Shown here one piece after another: positions 45,434 to 64,000 of a stretch of 64,000 bases of DNA. The stretch's first letter is position 1. Every line of letters starts with the position of its first letter. The stretch is from the NCBI RefSeq assembly GCF_008727875.1, contig NZ_VTWS01000001.1, forward strand, positions 806,001 through 870,000, written 5' to 3'. Origin of the DNA: Larkinella humicola (GTDB taxonomy: Bacteria; Bacteroidota; Bacteroidia; Cytophagales; Spirosomataceae). Made by a program: the position numbers and the translations under genes. The notes under the pieces were generated by a model, which worked only from the letters and a program-made list of their open reading frames with translations, did not search any database and was not told where the DNA came from.

Positions 45434-45449
45434 TCGACTGTTTAAGTTG

Positions 45450-45550
45450 AAGGAATACTAAATGTAAAATGATGAATGTTAAATGTAAAAGTAGTTTCCA
45501 ATCCAGCACTTTTACATTTAACATTCATCATTTTACATTTATTATTCCTT
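45450..45550. repeat. Near-perfect 101-nt palindrome, copy B
   Basis: Left arm 45450-45492 and right arm 45508-45550, 43 nt each, one mismatch, with a 15-nt loop. The same arm length, loop length and word content as copy A at 7369-7467, with about 36 of 44 bases identical between left arms. Located between the convergent ung and lepB genes, 16 and 13 bp from their ends. Confidence 0.92.
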
Positions 45551-45563
45551 GGTACCGCTTTAG

Positions 45564-46700
45564 TTAGTCAATAATTCGGAACAGGCGGTTCCAGCGGATT
45601 TTATTCAAAACGCTTTCCGGATTGGGGTCGATCGACATCCAGATGAAAACCGCTTTACCCACAATGTGATCGGCCGGCACAAAGCCCCAATACCGCGAGT
45701 CGGCGGAGTTGTGGCGGTTATCGCCCATCATAAAGTAGTAATCCTGCTTGAACGTGTATGACGTGATGGCTTTCCCATCAATTTTTATGGAATTTTCGGC
45801 TAACTCAACCTTCTCGTTGCCCTCGTATTTTTGAATCACCGGGCCGTACAAGGCAATGTTTTTTTCGTCCAGTTGGATCGTCGCGCCTTCTTTCGGGATC
45901 GTAATCGGACCGTAATTATCGACATTCCAGGGAAACAGGGACGACTGCGGATACACCGGCTGGAAAGGATTGGCCGACCCTTTCGGCGAACTCAGGGCTT
46001 CGATGCCCTGAACAAAATCCTGTTGCTTCAACAGAGCAGCGGTTTCTGGCGTGGTGTGAATCCGGTAGCCGGAGGCATCGTTCGCGGCAATCGTATCATT
46101 AAACGTTTCCGTACTTTGCTCAAAATCCGTAATGTCATACCGCTTGAACACTTTGGCGCTGATCACCGAGTTTGTCTTCAGAAAATACTCGGTTTCGGAT
46201 TTCACCGGATCGGGAAATGCCTGGCCATTGACGAAAACCTTGCGGTCGCGCACTTCCAGCACATCGCCCGCAACGCCGATGCAGCGTTTGATGTAGTTGG
46301 TTTTGAGATCGGTCGGATAGTCTTCGGGCGGGTAGTTAAACACCACGACGTCGCCTTGCTTGACGGACGAGAAGCCAGGCAGACGGTATTGGGGCAATTG
46401 AATCCAGTCGAGGTACGACGGTATTTCGGTCCCCCAGATTTTCTGGTGCGTCAGCGGCACCTGCAAGGGCGTTTTGGGCGTCCGGGTTCCGTAATGCAAT
46501 TTACTGACAAACAGAAAATCACCGACCAGCAAGCTCTTTTCCATCGAAGGCGTCGGAATCGTAAACGCTTCCATAAACAGCCAGCGAATCAGCGTAGCTG
46601 CAACCACCGCAAAGACAATGGAATCAATCCACTCACGGAACGGCGATTTGTTCTTGACAGTGCGCCGGGTGGCGGTTTCCTGGTTTTTAACGACAGACAT
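45564..46700 (-). CDS. lepB: Signal peptidase I
   Basis: 378 residues, longer than E. coli LepB, as usual in Bacteroidota. N-terminal membrane helix (IDSIVFAVVAATLIRWLFME, about 27-46), the Ser nucleophile in TIPTPSMEKSLLVGDF, the general-base Lys in TNYIKRCIGVAGD and the conserved box MMGDNRHNSADSRYWGF. Cleaves signal peptides at the periplasmic face. Last gene of the parA-parB-DUF5683-dapB-lepB run, 112 bp after dapB with a palindromic spacer between. Confidence 0.96.
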   Translation of the reverse strand: MSVVKNQETATRRTVKNKSPFREWIDSIVFAVVAATLIRWLFMEAFTIPTPSMEKSLLVGDFLFVSKLHYGTRTPKTPLQVPLTHQKIWGTEIPSYLDWIQLPQYRLPGFSSVKQGDVVVFNYPPEDYPTDLKTNYIKRCIGVAGDVLEVRDRKVFVNGQAFPDPVKSETEYFLKTNSVISAKVFKRYDITDFEQSTETFNDTIAANDASGYRIHTTPETAALLKQQDFVQGIEALSSPKGSANPFQPVYPQSSLFPWNVDNYGPITIPKEGATIQLDEKNIALYGPVIQKYEGNEKVELAENSIKIDGKAITSYTFKQDYYFMMGDNRHNSADSRYWGFVPADHIVGKAVFIWMSIDPNPESVLNKIRWNRLFRIID

Positions 46701-56960: not shown

Positions 56961-57290
56961 TCAGTTAAACATTCGACCGATTTCCTGTATACCCCGCAGA
57001 ATCGGCAAGGCTAATCGGCCCTTCGTAGTTAGTGTATATTCGACCCGTGGCGGAACCTCGGCATAGACCGTTCGGATCATTACCCCCAAGGCAACAAGGG
57101 CTTTTAGTTCACTGGCCAGCATTTTCTCGCTGATGGCCATTTTTTCGTAGAGCTCGCCATAGCGCAGCGTGTGTTCGCCCACCAGTAGTATGATGTACAA
57201 CCGCCATTTCCCGGACACTACGGCCAGAGCTTTGGTGATGAGGGTGTAATCGATTTCAGCGGGTGGATCATTCCGGTTCTTTTTGGACAT
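56961..57290 (-). CDS. HxlR-family winged-helix transcriptional regulator
   Basis: 109 residues from ATG 57290, MSKKNRNDPPAEIDYTLITK (the frame opens earlier, at 57323). HxlR core: ALAVVSGKWRLYIILLVGEH, RYGELYEKMAISEKMLASEL (recognition helix) and the wing PPRVEYTLTTKGR. No cysteine is present, so thiol sensing as in HypR or YodB types is unlikely. It probably controls the downstream desaturase gene. Confidence 0.9.
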   Translation of the reverse strand: MSKKNRNDPPAEIDYTLITKALAVVSGKWRLYIILLVGEHTLRYGELYEKMAISEKMLASELKALVALGVMIRTVYAEVPPRVEYTLTTKGRLALPILRGIQEIGRMFN

Positions 57291-57873
57291 CGTTATTGAG
57301 TCAGTGAACCTGAACCGAATCAAAGTAATCCCCTAGCGGGAGGACGCCTGAATCAGAAAAAGGCAATCAGAGTAGGGTGCGCCTTGATATCCGGGCTGTT
57401 CATCGCAAATGAAAAGACAAACCAGCACGCGTAAGAGAGCACTCCGGATACCTTAAAGTTGTAGTATGCCAGGAATTGTCAAAGTGAAAGCTTCCGGCGA
57501 TTTTCGCCGGCAAGAGCAAGTGGATGAATGCGGGGAAAGAGAAAGTCACCCCAGGAAGGTAACTAACGAATGTGTGATATACTTACTACGCTGTAAGCTA
57601 CTAACAAGTTCAGATAAATAAAAAAAATGTCATATTTGTTTCAGAACGGCGAGCTGCGGCCTGAAGGTCTTTTTCTTCATGTGGCAGTAAAAGATTAAAA
57701 AACTAAAAAGTGGAATTAGAAAAGGCTAGCTCGAATGGCGGCCGATTTGGAGAAATTGGAACTTGACTTACCTTAGAACCGGAACGGACAGACAAGAAGT
57801 TCCACTGATGTTCTACTGGAAACTTTTCTGTCTGTCCGGAAATTCCGACCTAACTACTTGATAATGTGTGAAG
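57291..57873. other. Gene-free chromosomal flank before the attachment site
   Basis: About 580 bp without a convincing gene. It contains a short hairpin CCGGCG-ATTTT-CGCCGG near 57,495-57,515 and, near its end, an inverted repeat described separately. A 51-codon frame at 57466-57621 is open but not protein-like. Confidence 0.6.
57785..57838 (-). terminator. Inverted repeat, likely terminator of the original tRNA-Thr gene
   Basis: CGGACAGACA (57785-57794) pairs perfectly with 57829-57838, extended by AAGAAGTTCCA against TGGAAACTTTT with mismatches. It lies 35 bp beyond the 3-prime end of the tRNA fragment, in the direction of tRNA transcription, so it marks the native chromosomal side. Confidence 0.5.
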
Positions 57874-57925
57874 AGCCCCCAGTCGGGATCGAACCAACGA
57901 CCTACTGATTACAAGTCAGTTGCTC
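57874..57925 (-). tRNA. 3-prime fragment of tRNA-Thr(TGT): attachment site of the element
   Basis: On the minus strand it reads from GAGCA through the anticodon stem-loop ACTGA-CTTGTAA-TCAGT (anticodon TGT), the variable loop AGGTC, the T arm with TTCGATC and the 3-prime acceptor half ending GGGGGCT. The D arm and 5-prime acceptor strand are missing: upstream sequence (CAGTAAGTTAT) has no tRNA character. This is the duplicated 3-prime end expected at one junction of an element integrated in a tRNA gene. Not a functional tRNA. Confidence 0.85.
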
Positions 57926-58046: not shown

Positions 58047-58081
58047 TGTATCAAACTGTGTAGCAAGGTTTGATACGCCCA

Positions 58082-59347
58082 ATGAAAATAGCAGCTCCAA
58101 CAATTGCAGTCATTCTGGATACTCGGCGGATTAAGGCCGATAACACCTATCCGCTAAAACTTCGACTAACTTATCAGCGCGACCGCAAGTATTACAGTAT
58201 CGGTATAGACCTAACCCCTGCATTGTGGGCCGATGTTGAAGATAAAACGAAAACGCGCCGGGAGCTTCGGGAAATAAGGAACCGTATCAATGATTTTGAA
58301 GGGCGGGCGGCCCAGGTTATGAAAGGAATGGAGTCTTTCTCCTTTTTAGCTTTTGAAGAAATGTACTTCCGGAGTGAAAAGGCCGACTCCCGAGAGATTG
58401 CCCTACGCAATGACCTGGCGTATACCTTTGAGAAAATAATTCAGCAGATGCAGGAAGAAGGCAGGGTAGGAACTGCAATCTCATACGGCAATGCGCTTGC
58501 CTCACTGACAGCATACCGAAAGAATTCTAAGATTACAGACGTCACCCCTGACTACCTGAAAGGCTACGAAAAAAAGATGATCCTGGCCGGCAGGTCTGCT
58601 ACCACGGTGGGGATGTACCTTCGGGCGCTTCGAGCCGTTATCAACCAAGCAATTCTTGATGGTGTCCTAACTCAGAAAGATTACCCGTTTGGCAAAAACC
58701 GTTATGTTATCCCCAGTGGGGTAAATATAAAGAAGTCATTAACACTGGCTGAGGTTGAGCGGATCTACCATTATTCCGCAATTCCCGGCAGTCAGGAAGA
58801 GAAAGCAAAAGATCTGTGGTTGTTCTCCTACCTCTGCAATGGAGTAAATATAAAAGACGTCTGCTTGCTGAAGTGGAAAAATATCGACGGCGATAAGATC
58901 AAGTTCATTCGCGCAAAAACAGCCCGTACAACAAAGTCAAAACTTCGGCCGATAATTGCCGTACTTACAGATACGACAAACGAGATAATTACCAGGTGGT
59001 GCAACCAAGACCGTAGCCCTGAAGCTTATGTTTTCCCTTTCATACCCCAATCAGCTACACCTCAGCGCGAACTCGAATTGATTCACTACCTGATCAAGCT
59101 TGTCAATAAGTATATGAAACGGATAGCTGAAAAATTAAAGATCGATAAAGACGTTACTACCTACTTCGCCCGCCACAGCTTCGCCACAGTATTAAAACGC
59201 TCTGGTGCGCCGATTGAATTTATTTCTGAAAGTCTGGGGCATACAGATTTAAGAACGACTGAGAACTACCTCGACAGCTTCGAGGATGATGTGAAACGGG
59301 AATATGCAAAAGCATTGTTAAATTTTTCTAAAAATTCGGTGAAATAA
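58082..59347 (+). CDS. Tyrosine recombinase (integrase), atypical active site
   Basis: 421 residues from ATG 58082 (an in-frame TTG at 58070 is less likely). Arm-binding domain about 10-75 (KLRLTYQRDRKYYSIGIDLT), SAM-like core-binding domain about 85-200, catalytic domain after LTLAEVERIYHYS. The second Arg (R364 in YFARHSFAT), H387 (SLGHTDLRTT) and nucleophile Y396 (ENYLDSF) are present. At the first-Arg position the sequence is CNGVNIKDV, with N256 in place of Arg; the HxxR His is Y361. IntDOT of Bacteroides also lacks the first Arg (it has Ser). Moves the element in and out of tRNA-Thr. Confidence 0.93.
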   Translation: MKIAAPTIAVILDTRRIKADNTYPLKLRLTYQRDRKYYSIGIDLTPALWADVEDKTKTRRELREIRNRINDFEGRAAQVMKGMESFSFLAFEEMYFRSEKADSREIALRNDLAYTFEKIIQQMQEEGRVGTAISYGNALASLTAYRKNSKITDVTPDYLKGYEKKMILAGRSATTVGMYLRALRAVINQAILDGVLTQKDYPFGKNRYVIPSGVNIKKSLTLAEVERIYHYSAIPGSQEEKAKDLWLFSYLCNGVNIKDVCLLKWKNIDGDKIKFIRAKTARTTKSKLRPIIAVLTDTTNEIITRWCNQDRSPEAYVFPFIPQSATPQRELELIHYLIKLVNKYMKRIAEKLKIDKDVTTYFARHSFATVLKRSGAPIEFISESLGHTDLRTTENYLDSFEDDVKREYAKALLNFSKNSVK

Positions 59348-60388: not shown

Positions 60389-60748
60389 ATGGTTACCGAA
60401 GACATTTCACTAAAAAACTTTCTGGCATCATTCATAACGCCGATTGTACAAAGTGCTGTTCGAGAAGAATTAAGGCACTTACCCCGCACAGACAGCCCTC
60501 CTCATCCACAAAACCGCATAGGTGGAATCGAACTGGCCAAGGAAATTACCGGTAAAGCTGAAAGCACTATCTATAATTTAGTCAGTGCTGGCAAAATACC
60601 CCACAGCAAACAATCCGGTAAACTCTACTTTTCCGAATCGGAATTAGTGAACTGGATTCGGCAAGGGAAACGCAAAAACGCTGATGAGGTAAATGCTGAA
60701 GTAGACAGCTTTTTGGGTCGTAGAGGAGGGCGTAAACAGGTAGCATGA
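60389..60748 (+). CDS. Excisionase-like helix-turn-helix protein
   Basis: 119 residues. The central part is a MerR/excisionase-type HTH: GIELAKEITGKAESTIYNLV followed by SAGKIPHSKQSGKLYFSESE (about residues 45-85). Basic C-terminus (GRRGGRKQVA). Such small proteins act as recombination directionality factors or regulators in Bacteroidota elements. Its stop overlaps the start of the next gene by 4 bp (ATGA), so the two are coupled. Confidence 0.85.
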   Translation: MVTEDISLKNFLASFITPIVQSAVREELRHLPRTDSPPHPQNRIGGIELAKEITGKAESTIYNLVSAGKIPHSKQSGKLYFSESELVNWIRQGKRKNADEVNAEVDSFLGRRGGRKQVA

Positions 60749-62017: not shown

Positions 62018-63302
62018 GTTCGGCAACACCCAACAAACCACCTCCGAAATCATTGAAAATCAGGAGCAATTTACAAATTTGGCGCAATCAAAGCAAGACA
62101 GGATTGGTGATTTTAACGAACATATAGACGGCCTTACCGACTTACTGCCAGATATAGTTAATGTAGAACCAGTATCAGCTTTTAATATCCCCGATGGACG
62201 GCAAAAAAATTGGGAAGACCTACTCAACCATGCCGAAATACGGCCCGGCGATTTCATCGAAAGGCCTCCTATTTGCATCTCTCATGAGATAACCAAATTG
62301 GGCGGGAAACTGCTACGATCCGTTATCGGCACCATCGGCAATTTTCTGGTGATCACCGGTAAGGCAAAGTCCCGAAAGACTTTTGTGGTCAGTGTTTTTG
62401 TTGCGGCTCTACTGTGCGATAAATTAATCCTAAAGTGTATTCGCGGCTACCTGCCTGATGACAAAAGGGTTGTCCTGTATTTTGATACCGAGCAGGGCAA
62501 ATGGCATGTACAGCGGGTTCTTAAAAGGATCTGTCAGTTGTGCGGTGACGATGATCCGGCGAACCTTAAAATGTACTCACTTCGCTCGTATGCCACCTAC
62601 GACCGTCTGGAGGTGATTCGATGGGCCATCAAAAATACTCCCAACCTCGGCATTGTGGTTATTGATGGGGTTCGGGATACCGTTTTCGATATTAACGATG
62701 CCGAGGAGGCTACCAACCGCGCCACCGACCTACTCCAGTGGACCGACGAAAGACAAATCCACCTCATCACAGTTCTGCACGAAAATAAAAACGACCGCAA
62801 CGCCCGGGGCCACCTCGGCACCGAGCTTGGCAACAAGTGCGAAACACTGCTTTCGGTACAGCGCGACCAGAAGGATAAGGAGGTTTCAATCATTACGCCG
62901 GAAATGTGCCGGGATCGCGAATTTCCAGTGATCCAGTTTTCCATTGACGAGGAAGGCAATCCGTTTTTGATCGACGATACCAATATCGGCAACTTCCCGG
63001 GGTTGTCTAATGAAGGCAAAGGCAAAAAGACAAAAACAACGCCTACCATTCTGGATCGTGAGACGCACGAACTGATTCTTAAAAGGATTTTTGCCGATAC
63101 ACCCCGAATGGGGTACAAAAACCTCTTAAGCCAGGCGCAGGTTGTTCCTCTCTATTTCGGAGTCGAACTATCCAAGGATCGGGCGGTGAACTTCATCACC
63201 TGGTGGAGAAATGAAGGGTACATCAAGACATTCAAACCAGAGGGTGAAAAATATCCCGTCAACGAAATTCAGAACGGTCGGTTTGAAAGTCAATCGTTCT
63301 GA
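62010..63302 (+). CDS. RepA/DnaB-like AAA ATPase of the element
   Basis: 430 residues. A P-loop ATPase domain with Walker A variant VITGKAKSRKT (about 115-125), Walker B LGIVVIDGVRDTV (about 212-224) and an arginine-containing LLTVLHEN-type strand HLITVLHENKNDRNARGHLG. This resembles RepA/AAA_25 ATPases, helicases or helicase loaders of plasmids and integrative elements. C-terminal region (about 330-430) is rich in charge and ends in RFESQSF. Strong SD at 61997. Followed by seven repeats whose first copy lies at the 3-prime end of the gene. Confidence 0.85.
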   Translation: MSEFGNTQQTTSEIIENQEQFTNLAQSKQDRIGDFNEHIDGLTDLLPDIVNVEPVSAFNIPDGRQKNWEDLLNHAEIRPGDFIERPPICISHEITKLGGKLLRSVIGTIGNFLVITGKAKSRKTFVVSVFVAALLCDKLILKCIRGYLPDDKRVVLYFDTEQGKWHVQRVLKRICQLCGDDDPANLKMYSLRSYATYDRLEVIRWAIKNTPNLGIVVIDGVRDTVFDINDAEEATNRATDLLQWTDERQIHLITVLHENKNDRNARGHLGTELGNKCETLLSVQRDQKDKEVSIITPEMCRDREFPVIQFSIDEEGNPFLIDDTNIGNFPGLSNEGKGKKTKTTPTILDRETHELILKRIFADTPRMGYKNLLSQAQVVPLYFGVELSKDRAVNFITWWRNEGYIKTFKPEGEKYPVNEIQNGRFESQSF

Positions 63303-63405
63303 ATCAATCGTTCTGAAGCCCTATATATATAGGGGCTTCTAGAACGATGCGAACGATTGATCATTCTACTGTTCTAACTAATCGTTCCAGAACGATCAGA
63401 ACGAT
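63293..63405. repeat. Seven ATCGTTC/GAACGAT repeats: candidate iteron origin
   Basis: ATCGTTC at 63293, 63307 and 63381; GAACGAT at 63342, 63351, 63390 and 63399. TCAATCGTTCTGAA is repeated directly at 63291-63304 and 63305-63318. Copies 63307 and 63342 lie in a long hairpin with a TATATATATA tip; copies 63381 and 63390 form ATCGTTC-CA-GAACGAT, a perfect palindrome. It is the only spacer (118 bp) between the ATPase and the primase-like gene, where an origin would be expected. Confidence 0.75.
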
Positions 63406-63420
63406 TAAAATAGCAAGCCA

Positions 63421-64000
63421 ATGACGACCACAGATTACAGATACGGCTTACACTCCAAATACGGCAAAGGCTACTGCCCCTCCTGCGGGCGTAAGTCCTA
63501 CGTACCCTACATTGATAAGCGCACCAATGAACTAGCGCCGGAAGAGTTCGGCCGCTGCGATCACCAGACAAGCTGCGGTCACATCCTTTCACCATACACC
63601 AAAGGCCAAGGCAGACAAAGCTACGCCGATGAGGTTTACGATCAGGAGCGCCAGCAGTGGCAGCAAGACAACCGCTATCCCATTGATGGACCAAACCGTC
63701 AGCGATCAACCGGACCCCGCACGCCGGTTGCTCCACCCGAGCCGCGACCAGTGATTTTGCAGACCATGCCGCAGGATGTGTTTACGCGATCGTTGTCCGG
63801 TTATGAGTCGAACAACTTTGCCAAGCTCCTGATGTCGCACTTTGGCTCGGAGGTAGCAACCTCCCTGATTGACCGGTTTAAACTGGGCACTTACAAAGCA
63901 GACTACGAACTCGCTTACTGGACCGATAAACGATATATAACGCAATCGTTCGGTAAGGGCGGCGCCATCTTTTGGATGCTCGATGCCAATGGCCAGGTAT
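63421..64000 (+). CDS. Zinc-finger primase-like protein, DUF6371-like (3-prime end outside window)
   Basis: 193 residues visible from ATG 63421, running off the window. N-terminal zinc ribbon GYCPSCGRKSYVPYI (two Cys) and FGRCDHQTSCGHILSP (further Cys/His), as in CHC2-type primases. Then residues about 118-193 (SNNFAKLLMSHFGSEVATSL, YELAYWTDKRYITQSFGKGG) match what I recall of DUF6371 proteins, found with RepA-like ATPases in Bacteroidota elements. A Toprim domain would lie beyond the window. Probably primes replication of the element from the adjacent repeats. Confidence 0.75.
   Translation, partial: MTTTDYRYGLHSKYGKGYCPSCGRKSYVPYIDKRTNELAPEEFGRCDHQTSCGHILSPYTKGQGRQSYADEVYDQERQQWQQDNRYPIDGPNRQRSTGPRTPVAPPEPRPVILQTMPQDVFTRSLSGYESNNFAKLLMSHFGSEVATSLIDRFKLGTYKADYELAYWTDKRYITQSFGKGGAIFWMLDANGQV

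Follow-up and report, generated by a model that had tools for sequence, protein, structure and literature searches.

An array of short repeats set about an AT-tipped hairpin was identified directly 3' of an ATPase gene in a mobile element of about 47.8 kb in Larkinella humicola (Spirosomataceae, Bacteroidota), within a window of 64,000 nucleotides (the whole stretch of DNA that was analysed). The array is probably (roughly 0.65) the replication origin (oriV) of this element, at which the ATPase would bind through its winged helix, beside exchangeable primase-type genes, and from which melting and replication would proceed. Computed support for this reading comes from a layout and spacing kept in many relatives, the turnover of the repeat units, the predicted motor and winged-helix folds, the replacement of the primase-type gene and the mobility of the element. 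Positions given below are those of the window; extended coordinates continue the same numbering to its right.

The array consists of 7-bp units at a 9-bp step, arranged as direct pairs and inverted copies (Table 1). An earlier note on this DNA had described GAACGAT units in direct and inverted order, a hairpin with an AT-rich tip and a perfect palindrome, and all of these were confirmed, with seven exact copies of the unit within 63293-63405 (exact-match count, 64-kb window) and one degenerate copy. It had also placed the array in the spacer between the ATPase gene and a primase-like gene. Most units do lie in that spacer (63303-63420), but the first is located in the last codons of the ATPase reading frame, whose stop codon is 63300-63302, and the array therefore starts just ahead of the spacer.

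Table 1. Features of the array, its neighbouring genes and the left end of the element.
Feature	Position	Strand	Basis or remark
Element left end: duplicated 3' part of tRNA-Thr(TGT)	57870..57924	-	intact tRNA beyond window
Tyrosine recombinase (integrase)	58070..59347	+	Pfam Phage_integrase, Phage_int_SAM_5, Arm-DNA-bind_5
HTH_17 protein, excisionase-like	60389..60748	+	Pfam HTH_17; PHROG excisionase families, weak
AAA_25 ATPase, RecA/DnaB-type core and predicted C-terminal winged helix	62010..63302	+	Pfam AAA_25, AlphaFold2, Foldseek
Predicted winged-helix domain codons, residues about 350-420	63057..63269	+	structure predictions
Repeat unit 1	63293..63299	-	exact GAACGAT; within ATPase 3' end
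Repeat unit 2	63307..63313	-	exact GAACGAT
Hairpin, TATATATATA at tip	63315..63339		sequence and folding
Perfect 16-bp palindrome CCCTATATATATAGGG	63319..63334		centre of hairpin
Repeat unit 3	63342..63348	+	exact GAACGAT
Repeat unit 4	63351..63357	+	exact GAACGAT
Degenerate unit ATCATTC	63360..63366	-	1 mismatch to GAACGAT
Repeat unit 5, opens second cluster	63381..63387	-	exact GAACGAT
Repeat unit 6	63390..63396	+	exact GAACGAT
Repeat unit 7	63399..63405	+	exact GAACGAT
Zn_ribbon_16 + DUF6371 protein	63421..64000 in window, on to extended 64692	+	primase-like by position, zinc ribbon only

Over the whole window GAACGAT occurs 22 times against 11.9 expected, and outside the array every 113-bp stretch holds at most one exact copy. 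When the window was scanned in 20-bp steps, the array had the top count for any 7-mer per 113-bp stretch. A weaker 7-mer cluster (at least four copies per 113 bp) was observed outside the element at 45441-45573, the only other starts to reach four being 45441 and 45461. A candidate second genomic copy of the array was rejected, as the extra 42-bp match comes from the hairpin aligning with its reverse complement; with the ATPase profile, a single genomic location was detected. The region 63250-63420 is 60% A+T overall, and as single-stranded DNA 63286-63412 folds at -29.1 kcal/mol (z = -7.9), a value matched by none of 200 shuffles.

The structure had previously been read as an iteron origin. 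An origin is the best-supported reading, but the classical iteron type does not fit. Classical iteron units are roughly 17-22 bp in length, compared with the 7-bp units and 9-bp step found here, and while the repeats do adjoin a presumed rep gene, the DnaA box TTWTNCACA is absent at the array (the nearest match has two mismatches) and no exact box was detected in the corresponding regions of any of 42 relatives. GC skew does not switch at the array.

The element is bounded by the tRNA-Thr 3' copy at 57870 and by the intact tRNA-Thr(TGT) gene at extended coordinate 105631-105704 (contig 911631-911704), outside the window, which gives the size of about 47.8 kb. Both hallmarks of an integrative element, an integrase and an att duplication, are present. 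The gene order is tyrosine recombinase, HTH_17 protein, AAA_25 ATPase, array and Zn_ribbon_16 + DUF6371 protein, with uncharacterised frames interspersed; farther to the right are found a peptidase M23, ABC-transporter genes, a LysM protein and a non-specific endonuclease, among others. The right part of the element also encodes an S24-type regulator, an impB/mucB-type polymerase, a DNA polymerase III alpha-type protein, Rad52-type and SRAP proteins and a truncated second integrase. The S24, impB/mucB, DNA polymerase III alpha, Rad52 and SRAP genes (extended 95466-100077, 93854-95272 and 102574-103197) form an SOS-like DNA-damage module carried by a mobile element. At extended 88010-89402, KilAC-domain and HTH proteins are followed by the truncated integrase, perhaps the remnant of a second element within the 47.8 kb. 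The element has 51 non-overlapping ORFs that reach 80 aa; Pfam was applied to 35 of them, and among these 35 no relaxase and no phage-hijacking or packaging genes were recognised. A profile search of the genome for PF03432 relaxases gave none in the element and two matches on other contigs (C4 and C10). When eight element proteins were compared with a defence-system library, the sole match was that of the HTH protein to mad1, which was weak.

Larkinella sp. C7 carries a nearly identical element (L035). The comparison spans 57870-71817 and 77000-108000. Over the first of these intervals (13.9 kb) the two copies differ by three substitutions and one indel, and that indel is a whole 9-bp step, GAACGATCA, extra in the C7 array, which consequently has eight exact units (the site lies at about 11298-11348 of L035, against 63307-63348 of the window). 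Since the array is the sole indel site over these 13.9 kb of two near-identical copies, the number of units may change quickly. The match is 100% over 77000-96000, and no differences occur over 95498-105500, compared with 207 over 105500-108000, mostly to the right of the tRNA. The left flanks (57000-57870 of the window and 1-5853 of L035) do not match between the two hosts, although the hosts are orthologous on the right side; a further island, or a rearrangement, to the left of the element may account for the unmatched flanks. The element is mobile, and the simplest reading of this comparison is that it was acquired recently in at least one of the two Larkinella hosts.

In the AlphaFold2 model of the ATPase, built from 35 aligned sequences and with a mean pLDDT of 85, a RecA-type core is followed by a C-terminal domain of three helices and a beta wing. 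Foldseek matched the whole model to RadA helicase, DnaB and RAD51. The C-terminal domain folded alone gave many winged-helix matches, including ORC1, replication terminator protein, Fur, MarR, TubR and AspA, all of them weak (best E 7.7e-3, none at or below 0.001), and a profile search of solved structures with the ATPase alignment gave no matches. The protein is accordingly predicted to be a RecA/DnaB-type motor with a C-terminal winged helix, and would be the Rep protein of the element. As TubR and AspA are among the fold matches and centromeres too can be repeats bound by winged-helix proteins, a centromere-like partition site of the excised circle was considered; it is highly improbable, given that the neighbours are motor and primase-type genes and that no ParA- or TubZ-type partner was recognised among those scanned.

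The search for relatives of the ATPase covered genomes of the family (200, then 222), order (390) and class (396), as well as plasmid, phage and IMG/VR collections. Of the 222 family genomes, 15 gave a match at E <= 1e-40, the genome of L. humicola itself being counted. In many relatives the same layout appears directly 3' of the ATPase stop codon, with units facing one way, a TATA-tipped stem and units facing the other way; same-family relatives usually have a second unit cluster too. Bacteroidales elements are simpler, with GTATATATA or CCTATATATA enclosed by a single inverted repeat or by two, and some relatives are found in gut Bacteroidales records. L065/L158, at the end of a C7 contig (G108:C24), and the human gut scaffold L136 have ATPases more than 90% identical and matching arrays in the same spacer, which may reflect contamination of the C7 assembly.

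The layout was scored in 42 relatives with tblastn bits >= 140, that of the window counted, each representing one cluster at 90% identity; as controls, 108 further open frames of 250 aa or more were taken from the same loci. A TATA-type core lying within an inverted repeat of 10/12 or better was found in 26/42 relatives and in 0/108 control frames. The core alone occurs in 38/42 relatives and 14/108 controls, and the inverted repeat alone in 36/42 and 43/108. Sixteen of the 42 relatives failed the combined layout. L148 is without an array. L058, L060 and L064 were scored as failures despite a visible hairpin layout because their best inverted repeat fell in the second cluster, and L036 was scored as a success though no array is visible by eye. 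One locus (L129) was excluded from the 42, as its ATPase match is broken off and transposase genes lie close by.

Homologues from plasmids, phages and viral contigs differ in that the C-terminal domain is absent in 53 of 55 (57 loci minus two without a usable region), and none of the 55 has the combined layout. Comparison of 26/42 with 0/53 gives a Fisher p of 1e-12 for presence and absence, phylogeny being ignored. Two homologues with a long tail, the fused primase-helicases L159 and L160 from plasmid records, lack the layout in the 180 bp downstream. A site-specific integrase was found in seven of nine plasmid-collection stretches examined; the other two, L129 and L159, have neither integrase nor layout, so that none of the nine is an integrase-free plasmid with an array. 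One relative (L130, NZ_OY725959.1; 15.7 kb) was deposited as a circular plasmid and carries an integrase, the ATPase, an array, a Toprim primase, MobC and a relaxase; it is possibly an excised mobilizable element. Among more distant ATPases (bits < 140), which were kept out of the layout statistics, a similar plan is visible by eye in L020, L022, L023, L025, L026, L029, L031, L032 and L070 and not visible in L019, L028 and L033.

The spacing is kept as well as the layout. The 5' edges of the units fall near -25, -11, +13 and +22 from the hairpin centre, and all four places are occupied in 11 of 19 hand-annotated elements (simulation mean 0.004, largest 1), although the unit words differ. In 33 of 33 cases, a unit on the left side of the hairpin points opposite to the right-hand units, by which orientation was defined. 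L035 and L063 were dropped from the spacing count as duplicates. In 21 elements the arms of a hairpin pair over a mean of 7.1 nt with their own partner and 3.6 nt when swapped, with none of 5000 permutations as good. Hairpin strings, units and cores were picked by eye from hairpin-bearing elements, so the spacing and pairing statistics describe these chosen elements. In only 28 of 59 elements is the most frequent exact 7-mer present in more copies than in any of 100 shuffles; these include 13 of 14 from the same family but few from Bacteroidales.

Covariation of the hairpin arms, together with the very stable fold of the array region as RNA (z -7.5), could also be explained if the array acted as a structured intergenic part of an ATPase-primase transcript. 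This is very unlikely, as the units are repeated directly as well as inversely and pairing needs no direct copies; moreover, Rfam gave no match at gathering scores and no terminator-like T run is present at the array.

While the geometry is kept, the units themselves vary by element (GAACGAT, TTAGTAC, TTAGGAC, TAAGGTGA, TAAACCA, TTAAAGT, GGGACAC, TAACACA and others). The earlier note had proposed searching related elements for the same unit; this expectation failed, since a GAACGAT cluster occurs among the compared elements only here and in the C7 copy, and the relatives carry other units. What is kept in many of them is the layout, the spacing, the position and the following primase-type gene. 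Similarity of the units correlates with ATPase identity at r 0.28-0.29 over 37 elements (L036, L148, L129 and proteins outside 340-519 aa excluded). Once the core is accounted for, the C-terminal domain taken whole contributes nothing (partial r 0.06, p 0.15), whereas the core still makes a small contribution when that domain is accounted for (partial r 0.12, p 0.014). For the presumed recognition-helix segment, residues 386-402, the partial r beyond the core is 0.165 (p 0.0015, with high windows at 380-399), in a test devised after inspection of the sequences and equalled by one of 13 core control segments (190-206). These values are only suggestive of units and recognition helix changing together; that each element lineage has an ATPase-unit pair of its own would fit such joint change.

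The gene after the array had been described as primase-like, and a BT4734-like protein had been named as a possible binder of the repeats. Here the gene encodes a Zn_ribbon_16 + DUF6371 protein, primase-like from its position and zinc ribbon, and it is in some other elements that BT4734-like_N takes this place. Based on ten proteins scanned in the relatives (one of them an ATPase), three primase-associated types occupy the post-array position, namely Zn_ribbon_16/DUF6371, CHC2 + Toprim_2 and BT4734-like_N (once with PriCT_2). The CHC2 zinc finger + Toprim_2 type is DnaG-like, and its Toprim alignment matches two solved DNA primases; the BT4734-like alignment had no matches among solved structures. 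Profile comparison, in which DUF6371 was set against each of the other two types, detected no similarity of DUF6371 to the Toprim or BT4734-like proteins. That dissimilar primase-type genes replace one another at a constant position next to a helicase-type gene would be hard to explain outside DNA replication.

In 27 relatives chosen by their ATPase, searched at E <= 1e-3, orf305, orf261, orf96 and orf119 were each found in none, the DUF6371 protein in 10 (in L130 over 41 residues only), the HTH protein in 15 and the integrase in 17. This bears on whether the array is an operator through which a repressor of the element, or the ATPase, controls the primase-type gene and later genes. Inverted repeats are typical of many operators, the array is upstream of a gene and the element encodes HTH proteins, but the explanation is unlikely, in view of the absence of orf261 and orf96 from the 27 relatives, the position of the array downstream of the ATPase gene and the lack of clustered GAACGAT anywhere else in the element. 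A scan of the array for sigma-70-like promoters and terminators, whose model does not extend to Bacteroidota promoters, found none, and eight spaced sites with a TATA-tipped hairpin are more than an operator requires. The array could conceivably double as origin and operator.

In some relatives, MobC and relaxase genes, or DUF4134/DUF4133 and DUF87 genes, are located just past the module, and NBU1 excision is described as requiring a large region that includes two genes, oriT and part of the relaxase gene (passages of PMC5704250). An accessory site for excision, or a part of oriT, would be consistent with these facts and is nevertheless improbable here, as the array is present in an element without a PF03432 relaxase and sits between the helicase-like ATPase and the primase-type gene rather than by a relaxase.

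If the array is the oriV, the ATPase would bind the 7-bp units via its C-terminal winged helix, and the opposed units flanking the hairpin could set ATPase rings face to face over TATATATATA. This segment would then melt or extrude as a cruciform, allowing the RecA/DnaB-like motor to enter, and the downstream primase-type protein, judging by gene order and family, would prime synthesis. Transient replication of this kind may keep the excised circle from being lost. More tentatively, the array may represent a class of Bacteroidota origin in which the motor reads its own origin through lineage-specific 7-bp words, which change along with its recognition helix, at a fixed geometry about a TATATA hairpin, with three unrelated-looking primase types pluggable beside it; we consider this wider proposal possible, with the odds somewhat against it.

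The oriV of RSF1010/IncQ plasmids is served by a dedicated hexameric helicase, RepA, and the primase RepB', beside repeats and hairpins. In IncQ the 20-bp iterons are bound by a separate protein, RepC, whereas the ATPase described here seems to carry its own DNA-binding domain. Origins of SaPI and other PICI also have short repeats around an AT-rich segment that vary between islands; their Rep is a member of another helicase family. Helicase activity of the SaPI initiators, and the presence of primases, are described in PMC7145576. An initiator that is also a helicase, accompanied by a primase, would be the shared feature, and the RecA/DnaB-like motor is the difference.

SGI1 already provides a known case of a broadly similar origin on a mobile island. 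According to the sections of PMC7433901 used here, the SGI1 oriV is directly downstream of rep in a mobilizable island, and its deletion abolishes replication and not excision. SGI1 is an integrative mobilizable island whose origin, a repeat array directly 3' of rep, has AT-rich parts, and which replicates after excision (same sections of PMC7433901); the present element would resemble it in these respects. Unlike the present array, that of SGI1 consists of four 17-bp direct iterons with a putative DnaA box, and its Rep has RepA_C (PMC7433901, as above); here 7-bp units at a 9-bp step are inverted about a hairpin, with no DnaA box and with a RecA-type ATPase having a predicted winged helix. 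Elements of the NBU1/NBU2 and MTn type in Bacteroidota, compared by description, are similar in their tyrosine integrase, in the tRNA 3'-end target of several and in a primase-family gene, and an origin or repeat array is not mentioned in the portions of the two accounts consulted (PMC5704250, PMC4755523). Relatives of this ATPase likewise adjoin integrases and, in L130, MobC and relaxase genes as well, but the element here is 47.8 kb and without a PF03432 relaxase. The array layout was not found described in a literature search whose scope left most subscription papers outside.

Under the heading 'An Unexplored World', a 2017 review takes up how excised mobilizable elements are maintained and states that no study had yet dealt with their replication (PMC5704250, in the section seen); that of SGI1 has been studied since (PMC7433901, in part). 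If the array is indeed an origin, the question of replication would become directly testable in the phylum for excised Bacteroidota elements, the array would be a marker for annotating them, and the ATPase would exemplify a motor able to recognise the origin it acts on, with a specificity that can be exchanged.
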